A stretch of DNA of 64,000 bases, from the NCBI RefSeq assembly GCF_029027965.1, contig NZ_CP119082.1:2274001-2338000 (forward strand), given 5' to 3'. Numbering within the stretch: position 1 is the stretch's first letter; each line of letters opens with the position of its first letter. Origin of the DNA: Paracoccus sp. S3-43. Lineage in GTDB: Bacteria; Pseudomonadota; Alphaproteobacteria; Rhodobacterales; Rhodobacteraceae. This document shows, in pieces, positions 2,961-19,357 of this stretch. Under the pieces are notes generated by a model. It did not search any database and was not told the origin of the DNA. It saw only the letters and a list, made by a program, of their open reading frames with translations. The position numbers and the translations under genes were made by a program.

Positions 2961-3100
2961 GGCCCGACGCTTTTGGCCGTCCGCGCCCGGCAATGCAAGC
3001 CCGGCCCCGAAGCCACGGGTTTTTTTCCGCCAATCCAGCATCTTCCACGCAGCCGTGACTTTCCTTTCCGCCGGAACTGGGCCAGCGTCGGGGCGTTGGG

Positions 3101-8906: not shown

Positions 8907-8989
8907 GCGCGGCTGGCGGAATTGGTAGACGCAGTTGGTTTAGGTCCAACCGCTTCGGCGTGGGGGTTCGAGTCCCTCGCCGCGCACCA
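8907..8989 (+). tRNA. tRNA-Leu (anticodon UAG)
   Basis: An 83-base class II tRNA with CCA encoded. The acceptor GCGCGGC pairs with GCCGCGC. The D-arm is TGGCGGAATTGGTAGACGCA and the anticodon stem GTTGG/CCAAC holds loop TTTAGGT with anticodon TAG at 8941-8943. A short variable arm and the T-loop GGTTCGAGTCC follow. The HicAB module begins about 110 bases behind its 3' end. Confidence 0.95.
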
Positions 8990-9100: not shown

Positions 9101-9289
9101 ATGAACCTGGAAACCGACAGCCGGAAGATCATCCAGATGCTGAAGGCCGAGGGATTCGAGGAGGTCTCGAAGCGCGGATCGCACCTCAAGCTCAGGAAAG
9201 GCGACAGAACGGTGATCGTGCCGCATCCGAAAAAGAACCTGCCCGTCGGAACGGTGCGCAGCATCTATTGGCAGGCCGGTCTCCTCTGA
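9101..9289 (+). CDS. hicA: HicA-type toxin (mRNA interferase)
   Basis: A 62-residue dsRBD-like toxin that cuts mRNA. The motif KRGSHLKLRKGDR holds the catalytic His, followed by TVIVPHPKKNLPVGTVRSI, the typical HicA ending. The ATG at 9101 is chosen because GAGG lies six bases upstream and the protein then has normal HicA size. An upstream in-frame TTG would place the start inside the predicted promoter. Gene order toxin-then-antitoxin is usual for HicAB. Confidence 0.92.
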   Translation: MNLETDSRKIIQMLKAEGFEEVSKRGSHLKLRKGDRTVIVPHPKKNLPVGTVRSIYWQAGLL

Positions 9290-9311
9290 CACCCAGGACA
9301 GGTAAGCCGCC

Positions 9312-9707
9312 ATGAAACTTTACACCGCCATCGTTCACAAGGACGCCGGGTCGGCCTATGGGCTGACCTTCCCGGATCTTCCCGGCTGCCATGCGGCAGC
9401 CGACGAATGGGACGACATTCCCGCCGCTGCCGCCCAGGCCCTCGATCTCTGGTTCGACGATCAGGCCGATGTCGAACCGTCCTCGATCGAGGCTATCCGC
9501 AAGCGAGAGGATGTCGCCATCAGCCTGAAAGAGGGGGGATCGCTCATCACCATCCCCTATATCAGCGCGGACGGCGCGCCCGAGCGGATCAACGTCTCGA
9601 TCGAGCGCGGCCTTCTGCGGTCCATCGACCGCACGGCAAAAGCGCGTGGAATGACCCGCTCCGCATTCCTCGCGGCGGCCGCGCGGCACGAGGTCACCGG
9701 GGCCTGA
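9312..9707 (+). CDS. hicB: HicB-type antitoxin
   Basis: A 131-residue antitoxin. The N-terminal partly degraded RNase H-like domain contains AYGLTFPDLPGCHAAADEWD, and the C-terminal half (RINVSIERGLLRSIDRTAKA, then GMTRSAFLAAAARHE) is a ribbon-helix-helix DNA-binding domain, so it can both block HicA and repress the promoter. It starts 22 bases behind hicA. Because the pair sits next to a tRNA gene it may have arrived by transfer, but base composition is like the neighbours. Confidence 0.92.
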   Translation: MKLYTAIVHKDAGSAYGLTFPDLPGCHAAADEWDDIPAAAAQALDLWFDDQADVEPSSIEAIRKREDVAISLKEGGSLITIPYISADGAPERINVSIERGLLRSIDRTAKARGMTRSAFLAAAARHEVTGA

Positions 9708-9870: not shown

Positions 9871-12800
9871 ATGAACATCGACCTTTCGCGCCGCGGCTTC
9901 TTCAAGCTGGCGGGAGCGGGGGTTGCGGCGACATCGCTGGGGGCCATGGGCTTCGGCGGGGCCGAGGCGGCGGAACAGGCGCATGTGCGCGCCTTCAAGC
10001 TGGCCACGACCACGGAAACGCGCAACACCTGTCCTTACTGCTCGGTCGCCTGCGGGATCATCATGTATTCCAAGGGCGACGTGAAGGCGGGCGAGACCGC
10101 CCAGCTTCTGCATATCGAAGGCGACGCCGACCATCCGACGAATCGCGGCACGCTGTGCCCCAAGGGCGCGGCGCTGAAGGATTTCGTCCATGCGCCCACG
10201 CGCCTGACCAAGCCGCGCTATCGTCCCGCCGGTGCCGGCGACTTCCAGGACATCACCTGGGAAGACGCGCTGGACAAGATCGCCCGCGCCCTGAAGGACG
10301 ACCGCGACGCCAACCTGATCCAGGTGAACGAGGCGGGCGTGCCCGTCAACCGCTGGACCACGACCGGCTTTCTCGCGGCATCGGCCACGACAAACGAGAC
10401 CGCATGGCTGACCTACAAGACGGTCCGGTCCATGGGGATCGTCGGATTCGATAACCAGGCGCGCGTCTGACACGGCCCCACGGTGTCCAGTTTGGGCCCG
10501 ACATTTGGCCGTGGAGCGATGACCAACTCCTGGACCGACATCAAGAATACCGACCTTGTGGTCGTCATGGGCGGCAACGCCGCCGAAGCGCATCCCTGCG
10601 GCTTCAAATGGGTGACCGAGGCCAAGCATCATCGCGGCGCCAAGCTGATCGTGGTCGATCCGCGCTATAACCGCACGGCATCCGTGTCGGATTACTATGC
10701 CCCGATCCGTCCGGGCAGCGACATCGTGTTCCTGATGGGCGTGATCCGCTGGTGCATCGAGAACGACAAGGTGCAATGGGATTACGTCCGCAACTACACC
10801 AACGCCAGCTTCCTGGTGAAGGACGAGTTCGGCTGGTCCGACGGTCTGTTCACCGGCTATGACGAGGAAAAGCGCGACTACGACAAGTCCAGCTGGGACT
10901 ACAAGATGGGCGAGGACGGGTTCGTCCAGACCGACCCGACCTTGCAGGATCCGCGCTGCGTCTGGAACCTGCTGCGCGCGCATGTCGACGCCTATACGCC
11001 GGACTTCGTCGAACGCATCTGCGGCACGCCCAAGGACAAGTTCCTGCATATCTGCGGCATGATCGGCGAATGCTCGACGCCAACCAGGACCATGACCTCG
11101 ATGTATGCGCTTGGCTGGACCCAGCATTCCAAGGGCGCGCAGAACATCCGCGGCATGGCGATGCTGCAACTGATCCTGGGCAATATCGGCGTCCGGGGCG
11201 GGGGCATGAACGCCTTGCGCGGCCATTCCAACATCCAGGGCCTGACCGATATCGGGCTGATGTCGAACCTGATCCCCGGATACCTGAACATCCCGACCGA
11301 AGCGGAAGCGGACTGGGCGACCTACATGTCCACGCGCGACTTCCAGCCGATCGTGCCGGGGCAGACCAGTTACTGGCAGAACTATTCCAAGTTCATGGTC
11401 AGCTTCATGAAGGCCATGTGGGGGGATGCCGCCACGGCCGAAAACGACTGGGCCTATCACTATCTGCCGAAACTGGACGTGCCCGCCTATGACGCCATGC
11501 GCATGTTCGAGCTGATGAACCACGGCAAGGTGAACCTGTATTTCTGCCAGGGCTTCAACCCGATCCTGTCCTTCCCCAACCGGGGCAAGATGACCGAGGC
11601 GTTCTCCAAGCTGAAGATGCTGGTGGTCATGGATCCGCTGGCGACGGAAACCTCGCATTTCTGGCAGAACCACGGCATCCACAACGACGTGGACCCGACG
11701 GCGATCCAGACCGAGGTTCTGGAACTGCCCACCACCTGCTTTGCCGAGGATGAGGGCGCGTTGGTGAACTCGGGCCGGTGGCTGCAATGGCACTGGCCGG
11801 GGGCGACCCCGCCGGGCGAGGCCAGGCACGACACCTGGATCATGGCGCAGATCTTCCAGCGGGTGCGCAAGCTGTATCAGGACGAGGGCGGGGTGTTCCC
11901 CGATCCGATCCTGAACCTGACCTGGGACTATCGCGATCCGGGCGACCCCAAGGCCGACGAACTGGCCAAGGAAATGAACGGTCGCGCGCTGGCCACCGTC
12001 TATGACGCGGCCGATCCCACCAAGGTCGTGGCCGAGGCCGGGCAGCAATTGTCAAGCTTCGGGCATTACCGCGACGACGGATCGACCATGGGCGGCTGCT
12101 GGATCTATGCCGGAAGCTGGACCGAGGCGGGCAACATGATGGCGCGGCGGGACAACAACGATCCCGACGACACCGGCGCCTTCCTGAACTGGGCCTTCGC
12201 CTGGCCCGCGAACCGGCGGATCCTCTATAACCGGGCGTCCTGCGACTTGCAGGGCAAACCCTGGGATCCGACCCGCAAGATCATCGAATGGACCGGCGAG
12301 AAATGGGAGGGCTATGACGTGCCCGACATCCCGGTCACGGCCAAGCCCGAGGAGGTCGGCCCGTTCATCATGAACCCCGAAGGCGTGTCGCGCCTGTTCA
12401 GCCGGGGCATGATGCGGGACGGCCCCTTCCCCACGCATATGGAGCCGTTCGAGGCGCCCATCGCCAACGTGTTCAATCCCAAAATGCGGGGCAACCCGGT
12501 GGCGCGGGTGTTCGAGTCCGATGCGAACCAGTTCGCCGACATCGGCGATCCCGCATTCCCCTTCGTCGCGACCTCGTATCGCTTGACCGAGCATTTCCAC
12601 TACTGGACCAAGCACAATCCGGTAAACGCCGCGTTGCAGCCCGAGTTCTTCGTGGAGATCAGCGAGGAGCTTGCCGCCGAACGCGGCATCGCGAAGGGCG
12701 GGCGCGTCCGGGTCTGGTCCAAGCGCGGGCAGGTCTGGGCCAAGGCGGTCGTGACCAAGCGGCTGCGGCCGTTGCAGGTGGACGGCAAGACCGTCCATGT

Positions 12801-12957
12801 CATCGGCATCCCGCTGCACTGGGGGTTCATGGGATCGGCGCGCAAGGGCTTCGGCCCGAACAGCCTGACCTCGCAAGTCGGCGACGCCAATGTGGAAACG
12901 CCTGAATTCAAGGCCTTCATGGTCAATATCGAACCGTCAGAGGAGCCGGTGGCATGA
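9871..12957 (+). CDS. fdhA: Formate dehydrogenase alpha subunit, selenocysteine-containing (FDH-N/O type)
   Basis: The catalytic Mo/W-bis-MGD subunit that oxidises formate to CO2 on the periplasmic side. It is 1028 residues if the in-frame TGA at 10468-10470 is read as Sec200; the context is ARV-U-HGPTV, as in E. coli FdnG, where Sec is residue 196. A Tat signal (SRRGFFK, Arg7-Arg8) begins the protein. The N-terminal 4Fe-4S site is Cys54, Cys57, Cys61 and Cys96. Later regions [15 protein letters not shown] and [13 protein letters not shown] are typical of the family. The start at 9871 follows GGAGGGG. The stop overlaps fdhB by ATGA. The UGA is not a frameshift: the frame and family similarity continue without break, and selA, selB and tRNA-Sec follow. 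Confidence 0.96.
10471..10513 (+). promoter_or_regulatory. SECIS-like hairpin for UGA recoding
   Basis: Directly behind the UGA, CACGGCC (10471-10477) pairs perfectly with GGCCGTG (10507-10513). Inside it GTGTC can pair with GACAT, and the apical CC-AGUU-UGG stem-loop lies at the same place as the GU-containing apical loop of the E. coli fdnG element. Bacterial SelB binds such a loop within the coding sequence. Confidence 0.7.
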
Positions 12958-13937
12958 CCGAAACCGCGCCCCAACCCACCACGGCGGCGGCGAACCCGCC
13001 CGTCCAGCCGATCGCGTCGAACCTGCTGCCGTCCGACGTTGTCCGCATCTCGGCCACCAAGGACGTGCCGCAGCCCGACCGGCAGCTGACCAAGGTCGCC
13101 AAGCTGATCGACGTGTCCAAGTGCATCGGCTGCAAGGCCTGCCAGTCGGCCTGCATCGAGTGGAACGACACCAAGCCCGAAGTCGAGACCAACGTGGGGG
13201 TCTATGAAAACCCTCACGACCTGACGCCGAACATGTTCACCCTGATGCGGTTCAGCGAATGGGTGAACCCGGAAACCGACAACCTGGAATGGCTGATCCG
13301 CAAGGACGGCTGCATGCATTGCGAGGATCCGGGCTGCCTCAAGGCCTGCCCGGCGCCCGGCGCCATCGTGCAGTATTCCAACGGCATCGTCGACTTCATC
13401 CATGAAAACTGCATCGGCTGCGGCTATTGCGTGACCGGCTGCCCCTTCGACATCCCGCGCATCAGCAAGGTCGATCACAAGAGCTATAAATGCACCCTGT
13501 GTTCGGACCGGGTTGCCGTGGGCCAGGGTCCGGCCTGCGCCAAGGCCTGCCCCACCCAGGCCATCGTCTTCGGCACCAAGGAGGACATGATCGCCCATGC
13601 CAACGACCGGATCGAGGATCTGAAGTCCCGGGGTTACGACAATGCCGGGATCTATGATCCGCAGGGGGTGGGCGGCACGCATGTGATCTATGTGCTGCAC
13701 CATGCCGACAAGCCGCAGATCTATGACGGGCTGCCGGAAAACCCGCGCATCTCGCCGGTGGTCGAGGGCTGGAAGGGCGTCACCAAGACCGCCGGTCTGG
13801 CGGTGATGGGCGTGGCCGCCGTGGGGGCCGCGATCCACGGGCTGTTCGCCCGCGCCAACCGCGTGGACGAACACGAGGAACAGGCGGCCGAGCGGCTGGT
13901 CCAGGCCGACGCGCCGCAGGACAGGGGGGGCGTGTGA
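12954..13937 (+). CDS. fdhB: Formate dehydrogenase iron-sulfur (beta) subunit
   Basis: Carries electrons from the molybdenum site to the cytochrome b subunit. It is 327 residues with four ferredoxin-type cysteine groups: [35 protein letters not shown] and CTLCSDR with CAKAC. A C-terminal hydrophobic anchor ([20 protein letters not shown]) matches the single transmembrane helix of FdnH. The N-terminal Ala/Pro-rich stretch has no signal, consistent with co-export with the Tat-carrying alpha subunit. It is coupled to fdhA by ATGA. Confidence 0.95.
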
Positions 13938-14623
13938 TGCGGCGTCCCCTTTATTCCGAACCGGGCGACCGGATCGAAAGCGTCAAGCCGGTGACGGTGA
14001 GCCGTTACCGGGGCTTCATCCGGGCGAACCACTGGCTGACGGCGCTGTCTCTGATCCTGCTGCTGCTGTCGGGTCTGGCGCTGTTCCATCCGTCGCTGTA
14101 TTTCCTGACCGGCCTGTTCGGCGGCGGGCAGACGACGCGCTGGATCCATCCGCTCATCGGGGTGGTGCTGTTCTTCAGCTTCCTGGTGATGTTCGTGCAA
14201 TTGTGGCGCCTGAACCTGCCGCGCCCCGAGGATACCACCTGGGTCGTCCAGATCGGCGACGTGATGGCGGGCCACGAGGAAAAGCTGCCCGAGCTTGGCA
14301 AATACAATGCCGGGCAGAAGTTCATCTTCTGGGCCATGTCGATCCTGATCGTGGTGCTGATCGTGACCGGCGTGATGATCTGGGAACAGTTCTTCGGCGG
14401 TCTGGTGACGATCCCGACCCGGCGCATCGCGGTGCTGGCGCATTCGCTGGCGGCGGTGGCGATCATCCTGGTCTTCATCCTGCATGTCTATGCGGCGATC
14501 TGGACGCGCGGCACGCTGCGGGCGATGACGCGGGGCACCGTGACCGGCGGCTGGGCCTATCGCCACCACCGCAAATGGCTGCGCGAACTGGCTGGACGCC
14601 GCCAAAACGGCCCGGCAGAATAA
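13937..14623 (+). CDS. fdhC: Formate dehydrogenase gamma subunit, cytochrome b556
   Basis: The membrane di-haem subunit passing electrons to quinone. It is 228 residues with four hydrophobic helices and candidate haem His residues in FIRANHWLTALS, WIHPLIGVVLF and VLAHSLAAVAIILVFILHVY. I prefer the ATG at 13937 in a TGATG overlap with fdhB, with the AGGGGGGG ribosome site seven bases away; a GTG three bases upstream is also in frame but too near that site. Confidence 0.93.
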   Translation: MRRPLYSEPGDRIESVKPVTVSRYRGFIRANHWLTALSLILLLLSGLALFHPSLYFLTGLFGGGQTTRWIHPLIGVVLFFSFLVMFVQLWRLNLPRPEDTTWVVQIGDVMAGHEEKLPELGKYNAGQKFIFWAMSILIVVLIVTGVMIWEQFFGGLVTIPTRRIAVLAHSLAAVAIILVFILHVYAAIWTRGTLRAMTRGTVTGGWAYRHHRKWLRELAGRRQNGPAE

Positions 14624-14659
14624 CGCAAAGGCAAGTGGCCGGTCCGGCCCGGAGACGGT

Positions 14660-15583
14660 ATGACAACCACCATGCAACCCGACCCTTCGGTCATCGGCGG
14701 CGTCCCCGTGGCGCCGCTGGCCTTTTTGCCCGATCCCGTAGCGGTCTTCGACAAGCGGGCCGGGCGGTTCGCCTTTCTGGCCGATCACGGCGGCAACCTG
14801 GCGCCCTATCTGCGCTTCCTGGCCGACCTGACCGCCTTGCAGGCGCGGCTGGCGCGGCTGGCGCGCGATCTGCCCGCCCCCGCGCCGATCCAAGCCGACC
14901 GCATCCGCATCGCCCGCGAAAGCCGGATGCCCCCCATCGACCGCGCCGCCCTGGCCGGGGACGAGGGGTTGCACGCCACGCTGGACCGCTTCCTGGCCGA
15001 GGCCGCGACGCTGGACATGCCCCAGCCCGCGCGTCTGGCCTTGTCCGCCGTGACGGCGGCGGGAATCGCCGACCGGCACTGGCTGCTGGACAATATCCTG
15101 TCCGACCGCATCCCCGATGACAGCGCCGCGCCGCATCTGTTCGTCGGCGCGGCGGTGCAGATCCATCTGGCGCGGCTGGCCGCCACGCTGGACGCCAGGC
15201 AGCTGGTCAAGATCAGGACCGGCACCTGCCCCGCCTGCGGCGGCAGGCCCGCGACATCGTCCGTGATGGGCGCGGCGGGGATCGAAAGCACCCGATACGC
15301 CACCTGCGGCGGCTGCGCGACGCAATGGAACGAGGTGCGCGTGACCTGCCTCTGCTGCGGGTCCACCAAGGGCATCAGCTATCGCAGCGTCGAGACGGAC
15401 GAGGCGACGGTCAAGGCGGAATTATGTTCCGAATGCGGCGGTTGGGTGAAGATCCTCTATCAGAACAAGAACCCCAGCCTGGATCCCATCGCCGACGACG
15501 TGTCCAGCCTGGGGCTGGACATGCTGATGAAGGACACCGATTTCCGGCGCGGCGGCTTCAACCCCTTCATCGCGGGCTATTGA
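14660..15583 (+). CDS. fdhE: Formate dehydrogenase accessory protein FdhE
   Basis: A cytoplasmic rubredoxin-like maturation factor needed for active respiratory formate dehydrogenase. The C-terminal half carries the expected cysteine pairs: GTCPACGG, ATCGGCATQW, TCLCCGSTKG and ELCSECGGWVK. The segment KNPSLDPIADDVSSLGLD near the end is typical of the family. It is 307 residues, starts 36 bases behind fdhC and ends in a TGATG overlap with selA. Confidence 0.94.
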   Translation: MTTTMQPDPSVIGGVPVAPLAFLPDPVAVFDKRAGRFAFLADHGGNLAPYLRFLADLTALQARLARLARDLPAPAPIQADRIRIARESRMPPIDRAALAGDEGLHATLDRFLAEAATLDMPQPARLALSAVTAAGIADRHWLLDNILSDRIPDDSAAPHLFVGAAVQIHLARLAATLDARQLVKIRTGTCPACGGRPATSSVMGAAGIESTRYATCGGCATQWNEVRVTCLCCGSTKGISYRSVETDEATVKAELCSECGGWVKILYQNKNPSLDPIADDVSSLGLDMLMKDTDFRRGGFNPFIAGY

Positions 15584-16950
15584 TGACGGGGTTCCGCGCC
15601 CTGCCCTCGGTGGATCAGGTTCTGCTGTCCGAGATGGGCCGGGCGCTGATCGAGGCCCATGGCCGCGCGGCGGTCACCGCCGCCCTGCGCGCCCGGCTGG
15701 AGACCGCCCGCGCGGCGATCCGCGACGGCGCCGATGGCGCCACCGAGGCCGCGCGCCTGCCGCATCTGATGGCCGCCGATCTGGCGGCAGGCGCGCAGTC
15801 GAAGCTGCGCCCGATGCTGAACCTGACCGGCACCGTGCTGCACACCAATCTGGGCCGCGCCATCCTGGCGGATGAGGCCATCCGCGCGGCATCGGCGGCG
15901 ATGGCCGCGCCGCTGGCCCTGGAGTTCGACCTGGACGGCGGCGGGCGCGGGCAGCGCGACGACCACCTGCGCGGGCTTCTGTGCGAGCTGACCGGGGCCG
16001 AGGACGCGACCATCGTCAACAACAACGCCGCCGCCGTGCTGATCGCGCTGAACACCTTCGGCCAGGGGCGGCAGGCCATCGTCTCGCGCGGGGAGCTGAT
16101 CGAGATCGGCGGCGCCTTCCGGATGCCCGACATCATGGCCCGCGCGGGCGCCCACCTGGTCGAGGTCGGCACGACCAACCGCACCCATCCCCGCGACTAT
16201 GAAACCGCGATCACGCCGGACACGGGGCTGATCCTCAAGGTCCATACCTCCAACTATCGGATCGAGGGTTTCACCGCCGAAGTCCCCGCGTCCCAACTGG
16301 CGCAGATCGCGCGCAAAGCGGGCGTGGTGCTGCTGAACGATCTGGGGTCCGGGTCGCTGGTCGATCTGGCGCAGTTCGGGCTGCGCGGCGAACCCACCGT
16401 GGCCGAGGCGGTGGCCGAGGGGGCGGACCTGATCACCTTTTCCGGCGACAAGCTGCTGGGCGGACCGCAGGCGGGCTTCATCGTCGGACGCCGCGAGCTG
16501 ATCGCGCAGATCAACAGGAACCCGCTGAAACGCGCCGTGCGGCTGGACAAGATCCGCATCGCGGCATTGGAGGCGACGCTGCGCCTTTACCGCGACCCCG
16601 ACCGGCTGGCCGAACGCCTGCCGACGCTGCGCCATCTGGCGCGCCGGCAGGCGGATATCGCCGCCCAGGCCGCGCGCCTGGCCCCGCAGGTCGCGGCGCT
16701 GCTGCCGGGCTACAGCGTGACGGCCACCGATTGCGCCAGCCAGATCGGATCGGGCGCGCTGCCGGTGGACAGAATCCCCTCGGCGGGGCTGCGGATCACC
16801 GGTCAGGGCGGCGACGCGCCCGACCGGCTGTCGGCCCGGCTGCGCGCCCTGCCCTGCCCCATCCTCGGCCATATCCGGGACGGGGCGCTGATTCTGGACC
16901 TGCGCACCCTCGACCGCGACGCCGACCTGCTGCGGGCGCTGTCGGCATGA
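15583..16950 (+). CDS. selA: L-seryl-tRNA(Sec) selenium transferase
   Basis: A PLP enzyme turning Ser-tRNA(Sec) into Sec-tRNA(Sec) with selenophosphate. It is 455 residues; the start at 15583 ([19 protein letters not shown]) is set by a TGATG overlap with fdhE. Visible family features are [36 protein letters not shown] and the PLP Lys290 in [16 protein letters not shown]. The stop overlaps selB by ATGA. selD (selenophosphate synthetase) is not in the window. Confidence 0.97.
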
Positions 16951-18980
16951 TCGTCGGCACGGCGGGGCATATCGACCACGGCAAGACGGCGCTTGTGAAG
17001 GCGCTGACCGGCACCGATGCCGACCGCCTGGCCGAGGAAAAGGCCCGCGGCATCACCATCGACCTGGGCTTCGCCTATGCCGACCTGGGCGGCGGGGCGA
17101 TCACGGGCTTCGTGGACGTGCCGGGGCATGAACGCCTGATCCATACCATGCTGGCGGGCGCGGGCGGCATCGACCTGGCGCTGCTGGTGGTGGCCGCAGA
17201 CGACGGCGTGATGCCGCAGACGCGCGAGCATGTGGCGATCCTGGACCTGCTGGGCATCGCGCGCGGGATCGTCGCGCTGACCAAGGCCGATCTGGCCGAC
17301 AATGCCCGCCGCGCGGCCGTGACGGCGGAAATCCGCGCCGCGCTGGCGGGGACCGCCCTGGCCGATGCGCGGATTCTGCCGGTGTCCTCGCTGACCGGCG
17401 AAGGCATCGACGCCCTGCGCACCGCCCTTGTCGCCGCCGAGGCCGAGACCACCGCCCGCCATGCCGACGGCCCGATGCGGCTGGCGGTGGATCGCAGCTT
17501 CACCCTGTCCGGCACGGGCACGGTCGTCACCGGGACCATGCTGACCGGCCGCGTCGCGGTCGGCGATCAGGTGACCGTCAGCCCCTCGGGCCTGCCCGCC
17601 CGCGTGCGCGGCATTCACGCCCAGAACCGCCCGGCGGCCGAAGGGCTGGCGGGCCAGCGTTGCGCGCTGAACCTGGCGGGCGAGGCGATCAGCAAGGATG
17701 CCCTGCATCGCGGCGACGTGGTGCTGTCGCCCGGCCTGCACGCGCCGACCGACCGGATCGACGCCTGGCTGACGGTGCTGGCCGGCGAACCCAGGCCCAT
17801 CGGCACCTGGTTCCCCGCCCGCCTGCACAGCCACGCGGTCGAGGTGAGCGCGCGGATCGTGCCGCTGGCCGATCCCATCCCGCCCGGCGGCAGCGGCCCG
17901 GTGCAGATCGTGCTGGACCGTCCCATCGCGGCGGCGGTGCATGACCGCTTCATCCTGCGCAACGTGTCGGCCAGCCGCACCCTCGGCGGCGGGCGCTTCC
18001 TGGACCTGCGCGCCCCCGCCCGCAAGCGCCGCACGCCCGAACGCCTGGCGCTGATCGCCGCCGCCCGCGCCGAGGATCCCGCCGCCGCCCTGGCCGCGAT
18101 GCTGGCCGTGGCCCCGGTGGATCTGCCGGGTTTCGCCCGCGACCGCAGCCTGTCGCCCGCAGCATGGGCGGATGCCGTCCGCACGGCCCAGGCCGCGACC
18201 ATCGGCGATCTGGCGATCAGCCGCACCGTTCTGGAGGTGCTGCGGACCCAGCTGATCGAAACCCTGACGCAGTTCCATCAGGACAACCCCGACCTGTCCG
18301 GCCTGGGCCGCGAACGCCTGCGCCTGACCCTGCAACCGCGCCTGCCGAAAGAGGCGTCTCTTGCCTTCCTGCGCGCCGAGGCCGAGGCGGGCCGCGCCAC
18401 CCTGGACGGCGCCTTCGTCCGCCTGCCCGGCCACGAGGTCCGCCTGACGCCCGAGGACGAGGCGCTGTGGGACCGCATCGCCCCCGGCCTTGTGGGCGAG
18501 GCCCGCTTCCGCCCGCCGCGCGTGCGAGATTTCGCGACCGACTTCGGCATCGACGAACGCGAGGTGCGCCGCGTCCTGAAGCTGACCGCGAGGCTGGGCC
18601 GCACCGACCAGATCGCGCATGACCATTTCTTCGCCCGCCCCGTCACGGCGGAAATGGTGGCGATCCTCCTGGACGTGGCGTCGCAGGCCCCCGACGGCTG
18701 GTTCACCGCCCCCGCCTTTCGCGACCGCGTGCAGAACGGCCGCAAGGTCGCCATCGAGATCCTGGATTTCTTCGACCGCCACGGCCTGACCTTGCGCCGG
18801 GGCGATTTCCGTCGCATCAACCCGCATCGCGCCGACCTGTTCGGCACGGCGCAGACGGAACACGGAAGGGAATCGTCCCCGGTGGGGCGGCCGGACTTCA
18901 AATCCGGTTGGGGCAGCGAGACTGTCTCGGGTGGGTTCGACTCCCATTCCCTTCCGCCATCTTCCGAAGGCTCGCCATGA
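16947..18980 (+). CDS. selB: Selenocysteine-specific elongation factor; frame reads through tRNA-Sec
   Basis: A GTPase that carries Sec-tRNA to the ribosome at UGA and binds the SECIS hairpin. The GTPase part has [22 protein letters not shown] and TKADL; EF-Tu-like beta domains follow, then C-terminal winged helices ([17 protein letters not shown]). The frame is 677 codons. Residues 1-639 cover a complete SelB; codons 640-671 are exactly the 96 bases of the tRNA-Sec gene, in phase, and six more codons follow to a TGA at 18978-18980 that overlaps the next ATG. No stop codon lies between the normal end of SelB and the tRNA. The tail has no family similarity and is probably an accident or a coupling device. 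Confidence 0.93.
18864..18959 (+). tRNA. selC: tRNA-Sec (anticodon UCA)
   Basis: A 96-base tRNA with encoded CCA. The acceptor stem is 8 bp (GGAAGGGA/TCCCTTCC), the D-stem is long and G/C rich, the anticodon stem CCGGA/TCCGG holds loop CTTCAAA with TCA at 18898-18900, the long variable arm is closed by CGAGA/TCTCG, and the T-loop is GGTTCGACTCC. The whole gene lies inside the selB reading frame, beginning on a codon boundary. No own promoter is seen, so it is probably processed from the fdh-sel transcript. Confidence 0.96.
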
Positions 18981-19357
18981 CCGATTTCGACGACTGGCTG
19001 CGCGCCACCTTCGCGGAAACGCAGGGCTTCACCCTGCTGATCGTCCTGGTCGGCACGCAGGGGGGCCGTGTCGACCTGCTGCGGTCGGCGCATCTGCATG
19101 TGATCGGCGACGACATCGCCTGGCCCGACATGGCGGCGCGTCTGGACGGGTCGGGCGTGGCTTGGGAGGCGGTGGCGCTGTTTCGGGCGGGGCGCGAGGG
19201 GCTGGTGGCCGACGGCATCGCCAAGGACCGGCTGGACCAGCTTATGCGCGCGCTGAACGGCGACCGGACGCTGATCCGGGACGGCGAATTCTTTAATCGC
19301 GACGGGCTGCGCCTGCGGCTGGACGATGCCGAACCGCAGGTGCCGATCCTGAACTGA
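18977..19357 (+). CDS. Conserved-looking small protein of unknown function coupled to selB
   Basis: A 126-residue protein that I do not recognise. It has no signal peptide or membrane segment; it is acidic, with a hydrophobic strand FTLLIVLVG near the N terminus and the phrase GDDIAWPDMAARLDGSG in the middle. The start at 18977 overlaps the extended selB stop by ATGA, 17 bases behind the tRNA-Sec CCA end. Third-position GC is high, as in real genes of this window. Its stop TGA abuts the stop of the convergent secreted-protein gene (TGATCA). Confidence 0.7.
   Translation: MTDFDDWLRATFAETQGFTLLIVLVGTQGGRVDLLRSAHLHVIGDDIAWPDMAARLDGSGVAWEAVALFRAGREGLVADGIAKDRLDQLMRALNGDRTLIRDGEFFNRDGLRLRLDDAEPQVPILN

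Follow-up and report, generated by a model that had tools for sequence, protein, structure and literature searches.

A tRNA-Sec gene inside selB

The window analysed here comprises 64,000 nucleotides (nt) of Paracoccus sp. S3-43 (assembly GCF_029027965.1, contig NZ_CP119082.1, positions 2,274,001 to 2,338,000), in which the selB reading frame passes, on the same strand, through the whole of selC, the gene for the selenocysteine (Sec) tRNA, tRNA-Sec. The genome is a single contig of 3.22 Mb. Its SelB is closest to Paracoccus proteins, and among the matches listed with an organism name the nearest is that of Paracoccus subflavus (84% identity). The locus is a nested selB–selC gene of a published kind, near the end of an fdoGHI-fdhE-selA-selB operon. 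Judging from its relatives, ribosomes probably translate the frame to its full length, and selection probably acts on it.

The tRNA-Sec was recognised by Rfam family RF01852 (82.9 bits, 18864–18955) and by ARAGORN (18863–18959). Including its encoded GCCA it measures 96 nt, a multiple of three equal to 32 codons, and its first base falls on selB codon 640. The frame that opens with the selB ATG at 16947 reads the tRNA as a peptide beginning GRESS, with Gly from nt 1–3 (GGA), and ending SLPP, with the last Pro from CCA. Six further codons (SSEGSP) follow before the TGA at 18978–18980, which overlaps the next ATG (ATGA, 18977–18980). The last Pfam and NCBIfam SelB matches stop at residue 623, which places the end of the normal protein (NPHRADLFG) a little ahead of the tRNA. 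The initial annotation, made from the letters and open reading frames alone, had described a selB frame with no stop between the SelB end and selC, entering the tRNA on codon 640 and continuing through 32 sense codons and six more to a TGA shared with the next ATG; this description is exact in every position.

None of the three frames of this tRNA-Sec contains a stop, and at the window's guanine-plus-cytosine (GC) content of 67% the probability that 32 random codons are free of stops is ~0.49. An open frame in a single genome is therefore unremarkable on its own, but the pattern of frame, spacer and stop position across relatives exceeds chance.

Frame, spacer and stop among relatives

Loci were called open where the selB frame reads through the whole tRNA and closed where a stop precedes it. 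Within the genus, tRNA-Sec was present in 96 of 125 genomes (97 copies), and the flanking DNA of all 97 was examined: 72 copies have selB upstream (L101 only by a distant match), 26 of the 97 lie inside a selB frame that runs through, and 25 have no selB in the upstream sequence examined, which for a few of them was short (about 0.5–0.7 kb in L078 and L100). Sample 1 consists of 81 loci pooled from genus, family, class and phylum genomes and drawn from 119 rows with selB upstream. The 38 rows left out, 37 of them closed and one (L121) ending inside the tRNA in the same frame, were L055 (same genome as L003), L101 (second selC copy of one genome), L042 (SelB shortened by truncation), L008–L013 (distant SelBs) and 29 class or phylum rows without a recognisable DLF end. 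The phylum search gave 53 tRNA-Sec matches, of which 21 were left out of the comparison.

Sample 2 contains 77 of 80 named loci from one profile scan of genome contigs; L234, L253 and L266 were set aside, their loci containing no tRNA-Sec. Its genera include Phenylobacterium, Hyphomicrobium, Bradyrhizobium, Mesorhizobium, Microvirga, Ensifer, Roseomonas, Xanthobacter and Dyella. It represents the best 80 of at least 528 candidates under a profile headed by a read-through locus, and the proportion of open loci in it cannot be read as a rate. One locus common to both samples (L141 = L244) was removed once in pooled counts, and the 25 genus copies without selB upstream, together with L006, lie outside both samples. 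Trees were quick maximum-likelihood trees (LG+G4). A first sample 1 tree, built without L149 and L119, included 28 open proteins picked by a frame-0 motif, whose frame is therefore given in advance; the pair count of 12/12 from this tree was replaced by counts from trees of loci only.

In every open locus the tRNA is entered in frame 0, as here (30/30 in sample 1 and 51/51 in sample 2, 81/81 together). Closed loci show tRNA offsets 0/1/2 of 15/18/17 and 3/8/6, or 18/25/23 when pooled without the shared locus. The initial annotation had proposed comparing SelB C termini and selC positions in related genomes, and the outcome is divided: closed relatives with mixed frames do exist, but none of the 81 full read-through loci departs from frame 0. 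Stop codons within the tRNA do not account for the single frame, since frames 1 and 2 are stop-free in 29 and 29 of the 30 open loci of sample 1 and in 47 and 48 of the 51 of sample 2 (76 and 77 of 81), and since simulated 1-nt spacer deletions and insertions (G or C) leave the frame open in 89% and 83% of cases in sample 1 and 87% and 73% in sample 2. In each of the 51 named open loci the tRNA length is divisible by three. By motif, a frame-0 tail occurs in 40 of the best 120 of 7999 SelB homologues and a frame-1 or frame-2 tail in none, although the query itself carried a frame-0 tail, which favours such proteins.

The spacer between the conserved SelB end and the tRNA has 19 different lengths in open loci, from 0 to 93 nt. 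On the loci-only trees its length changed at least 10 times (sample 1) and at least 26 times (sample 2) among open loci with no change of phase, whereas closed loci underwent at least 31 and at least 15 length changes with at least 15 and at least 8 phase changes (46 versus 23 in total). Among phylogenetically separate sister pairs of unequal spacer length, the difference is divisible by three in 7/7 and 14/14 open cases and in 5/15 and 4/8 closed cases (Fisher p 8.1e-6). On these trees, the frame is kept through many separate insertions and deletions.

Termination behind the tRNA follows a similar pattern. The selB frame ends within 12 codons of the tRNA in 30/30 and 50/51 open loci (80/81, median 6), whereas the tRNA's first frame stops within this distance in 16/50 and 5/17 closed loci, close to the 25% expected from base composition. 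Among the 44 open loci whose selB stop overlaps no following start (of a frame of at least 60 codons), all 44 stop within 12 codons; the other two frames of these same loci do so in 19/88 cases. In the trees and counts of both samples, read-through lineages thus retain both frame and prompt stop, and the frame drifts where selB stops before the tRNA.

Intermediate and derived arrangements were also observed. In 7 of the 77 named loci selB enters the tRNA in frame and terminates at a TGA formed by tRNA nt 46–48 (L194, L202, L205, L207, L212, L220 and L241), and the same TGA ends selB in L035 and L121; several lineages are involved, including alphaproteobacteria. In Mesorhizobium temperatum (L234) and Ensifer sesbaniae (L253), the selB frame closes on a truncated tail derived from the tRNA, and the locus itself contains no tRNA-Sec, resembling the pSymA remnant described by Mukai 2021 (PMC8124441). 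In L195, from a Phenylobacterium metagenome-assembled genome, a SECIS_3 (selenocysteine insertion sequence) match at 2979–3037, about 1.1 kb behind selC, probably marks a selenoprotein gene downstream of selB–selC.

Operon context and the transcription of selC

The nested gene belongs to a plus-strand run at 9871–19357 that carries fdoG-, fdoH- and fdoI-like genes, fdhE, selA, selB, tRNA-Sec and a 126-codon frame, with overlaps at five of the six junctions between the seven protein genes (Table 1). The fdoG-like gene has its in-frame TGA, the Sec codon, at 10468–10470. Upstream, a hicA-hicB toxin–antitoxin pair (9101–9707; Pfam HicA_toxin 60.9 bits, HicB_lk_antitox 91.1 bits) lies between a tRNA-Leu gene (8907–8989) and the operon.

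Table 1 Features of the fdo-sel operon and the nested selB–selC locus (window positions)
Feature	Position	Strand	Basis or remark
selB open frame, 677 codons; last 38 are tRNA (32) and 6 beyond	16947..18980	+	TIGR00475 selB, residues 1-623
selC, tRNA-Sec with encoded CCA	18864..18959	+	RF01852, ARAGORN, translation
Spacer GTAQTEH, conserved SelB end (DLF) to tRNA	18843..18863	+	Length varies only by multiples of 3 in the read-through loci examined
126-codon open frame, family not assigned, adjoins selC	18977..19357	+	ATG overlaps extended selB stop; GAAGG upstream
Weak promoter-like candidate TTGCGC-N17-CATCAA inside selB	18792..18820	+	Conserved in most Paracoccus rows
fdoG-like selenoprotein formate dehydrogenase alpha subunit	9871..12957	+	Pfam Molybdopterin, Molydop_binding, Molybdop_Fe4S4 if TGA read through
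SECIS_3 element, covers Sec codon and bases 3' of it	10465..10523	+	Rfam RF01989, 80.4 bits
fdoH-like iron-sulphur subunit	12954..13937	+	Pfam Fer4_11, Form-deh_trans; ATG overlaps upstream TGA (ATGA)
fdoI-like cytochrome b subunit	13937..14623	+	Pfam Ni_hydr_CYTB
fdhE	14660..15583	+	TIGR01562 FdhE; Pfam FdhE_N/central/C; TGA overlaps selA ATG
selA	15583..16950	+	TIGR00474 selA; TGA overlaps selB ATG (ATGA)

The 126-codon frame gave no Pfam or NCBIfam match at E 0.1. Its homologues occur in 23 of the 125 genus genomes, all 23 with tRNA-Sec, and it stands directly behind selC in 15 of the 30 open loci of sample 1, in one closed locus (L112) and in five selC loci not linked to selB (L031, L066, L067, L068 and L088). 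It seems, from this distribution, to follow selC more than selB.

The transcription of selC was assessed with a strict promoter-like pattern (TTG-N19-21-TA[TG]) upstream of the tRNA, using shuffled sequences as control. Where selC has no selB upstream the pattern was found in 14/25 Paracoccus copies (shuffles 0.9) and in 14/45 class and phylum copies (shuffles 4.0). Before linked selC it occurred in 0/51 open loci of sample 2 (shuffles 0.7) and in 2/73 genus and family loci of sample 1 (shuffles 1.4), a scarcity that fits transcription from the operon. A scan for consensus promoters found none, did not pick up the candidate inside selB, and returned one terminator-like site, as many as in shuffles.

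The initial annotation had considered that selC might have a transcript of its own, and the evidence again cuts both ways: most linked selC genes have no promoter-like signal, but Paracoccus has a weak, conserved candidate within selB (Table 1). If selC were transcribed mainly from a promoter inside the selB 3' end, the overlap would have little to do with tRNA supply; read-through on the long mRNA would need only to end somewhere, and selection would keep the first stop behind the tRNA. The TTG at 18792 is a rare Leu codon; selB has 73 Leu codons and uses TTG for none of the others. Of the 70 rows compared, 66 have Leu at this position and 61 of them keep TTG, and CATCAA is kept in 58 of the 70; CATCAA, however, is largely set by conserved Arg-Ile-Asn codons, and the site as a whole is far from consensus. 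TTG-N20-CATCAA also lies 26–30 nt before selC in 4 of the 25 selB-unlinked Paracoccus copies (shuffle mean 0.0), although these four may be related to each other. A loose form of the pattern matches 62/73 linked rows of sample 1, against 7.0 in shuffles and 1/73 further upstream in selB; in the linked open selC of sample 2, the strict form is absent (0/51) and the loose form is found in 11/51 (shuffles 5.2). We regard a mainly independent selC transcript as rather unlikely.

A nested gene probably translated through its tRNA

The reading that we favour, and hold to be probable on balance, is that of a nested gene translated through the tRNA to a nearby stop, with excision of the tRNA as the alternative fate of the transcript. 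Since selection can see frame and stop only if an mRNA spanning both genes is made and translated as far as that stop, such mRNAs are likely to exist, and the comparative pattern suggests that ribosomes traverse the tRNA sequence.

Several observations weigh against it. Read-through is dispensable, as selB stops ahead of selC in 66 linked loci of the two samples and the state switches at least 9 to 10 times on each tree. In two Ancylobacter loci of sample 2 (L228 and L265) selB enters the tRNA in a frame other than 0 and meets a stop there. Substitutions in the tRNA, sorted by codon position, give no sign of constraint at the protein level, with 58 codon and 45 amino-acid changes in 30 open loci versus 66 and 45 in 46 closed loci. 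The stop counts are raw locus counts that ignore shared descent, and the frame counts and the spacer tests express a single fact in two ways and are not independent evidence. The candidate promoter within selB would, in Paracoccus, uncouple tRNA supply from cleavage of the selB mRNA.

Some of these points could also suit a tolerated accident, one of the two readings offered by the initial annotation, in which the stop was lost, the tail is harmless and nothing is selected. Stops before selC have come and gone repeatedly on both trees, GC-rich DNA readily yields open frames by chance, and no constraint is seen in the tail sequence. Without selection, however, frame 0 in 81/81 loci, the absence of any phase change in at least 36 length changes and prompt stops in 80/81 would be unexpected, and with one frame and a prompt stop kept in read-through relatives, we consider an accident improbable.

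It is a little less probable still that the frame is held by translational coupling, the extended selB stop overlapping the next gene's start. Such stop–start overlaps (with frames of at least 60 codons) are found in 14/30 and 23/51 open loci, mostly as ATGA, and at only 2/50 and 3/17 closed selB stops. Four other junctions of the operon overlap too, and Mukai 2021 (PMC8124441) notes the stop–start overlap as well. Control values, though, are not low: 12/60 and 13/101 for first stops in the other frames, and 37/145 and 68/251 for all stops within 300 nt behind the tRNA. Moreover, 44 of the 81 open loci keep both frame and prompt stop without any overlap, which rules out coupling to the next gene as the only cause.

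That the tail serves SelB as an additional functional segment, beside the SECIS-binding winged helix, is very improbable: the frame is maintained and the first 32 residues hardly vary, but this constancy follows from the tRNA itself, the spacer and the residues behind the tRNA vary freely, codon positions carry no signal, and many SelBs have no tail. The properties of the encoded peptides were also compared. Mean hydropathy (grand average of hydropathy) is 0.04 for frame 2 and -0.83 for both frames 0 and 1, and was rejected as the cause of frame 0, as it would explain the avoidance of at most one frame. By mean isoelectric point, frames 1 and 2 are strongly basic (11.6 and 11.3) and frame 0 is not (5.7). 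Synonymous-site conservation at the selB 3' end appears slightly raised in the open Paracoccus clade but not in sample 2.

The architecture itself has a precedent. Mukai 2021 (Int J Mol Sci 22:4605, PMC8124441) described the nested selB–selC genes of Alphaproteobacteria as a bioinformatic prediction, and the present locus shares with them the 96-nt tRNA-Sec inside selB with GGA as first and CCA as last codon, the stop overlapping the start of the next frame, and the cluster with Sec-containing fdoGHI and selA. We see no difference in kind. That paper also notes that the frame may be easier to keep when the length of the tRNA is divisible by three; its text names Paracoccus once, as the bearer of a selC that a Roseomonas selC resembles, and does not contain the frame, spacer and stop counts given here. 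The selB–selC pairs of Dyella and Luteibacter (Gammaproteobacteria) and of some Nitrospirae (PMC8124441) enter the tRNA in the same frame, but there selB ends with the TGA at tRNA nt 46–48, whereas here it runs through. A complete tRNA within a coding strand is likewise cited in PMC8124441 for tRNA-Lys in cox1 of Armadillidium vulgare mitochondria; this case, as cited there, differs in its compact mitochondrial genome and unrelated genes. The nested-gene report is repeated in reviews of 2022 and 2026 and cited in passing in a 2025 Aeromonas paper. No experimental test of nested selBC was found in the literature searched, to which subscription papers and preprints did not belong. What is new here is the comparative test of accident against maintenance; the architecture and the idea of competition were already published.

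According to that published hypothesis (PMC8124441), processing of the tRNA leaves a nonstop selB mRNA, so that SelB and tRNA-Sec are alternative products of a transcript. The initial annotation had arrived at the same idea in its other reading, in which tRNA maturation and SelB synthesis would compete, perhaps as a feedback between SelB and the supply of tRNA-Sec. Competition between tRNA maturation and SelB synthesis is compatible with an operon of overlapping genes, with the lack of a consensus promoter before most linked selC genes, and with the tmRNA (transfer-messenger RNA) gene found in the genome, which could handle a nonstop selB mRNA.

Within the nested-gene reading, ribosomes would read full-length transcripts through the unfolded tRNA in its first frame and stop no more than about a dozen codons farther on, yielding SelB with a non-conserved tail. 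Where no ribosome covers the region, the tRNA would fold and be cut out by RNase P and 3' nucleases, and its excision would, under the hypothesis, end the capacity of that mRNA to give properly terminated SelB. We tentatively raise a stricter version, possible but rather doubtful, of a one-shot switch: ribosomes would keep the tRNA unfolded and finish SelB until the first gap in traffic lets the tRNA fold, its excision ending SelB synthesis. If this were true, the flow of ribosomes on the fdo-sel operon would set the ratio of SelB to tRNA-Sec, and selection would hold frame and stop in those lineages that use the switch. More generally, the frame and stop tests are evidence for the translation of an entire tRNA gene by bacterial ribosomes and for its importance to the cell, and they open the competition model to direct testing.

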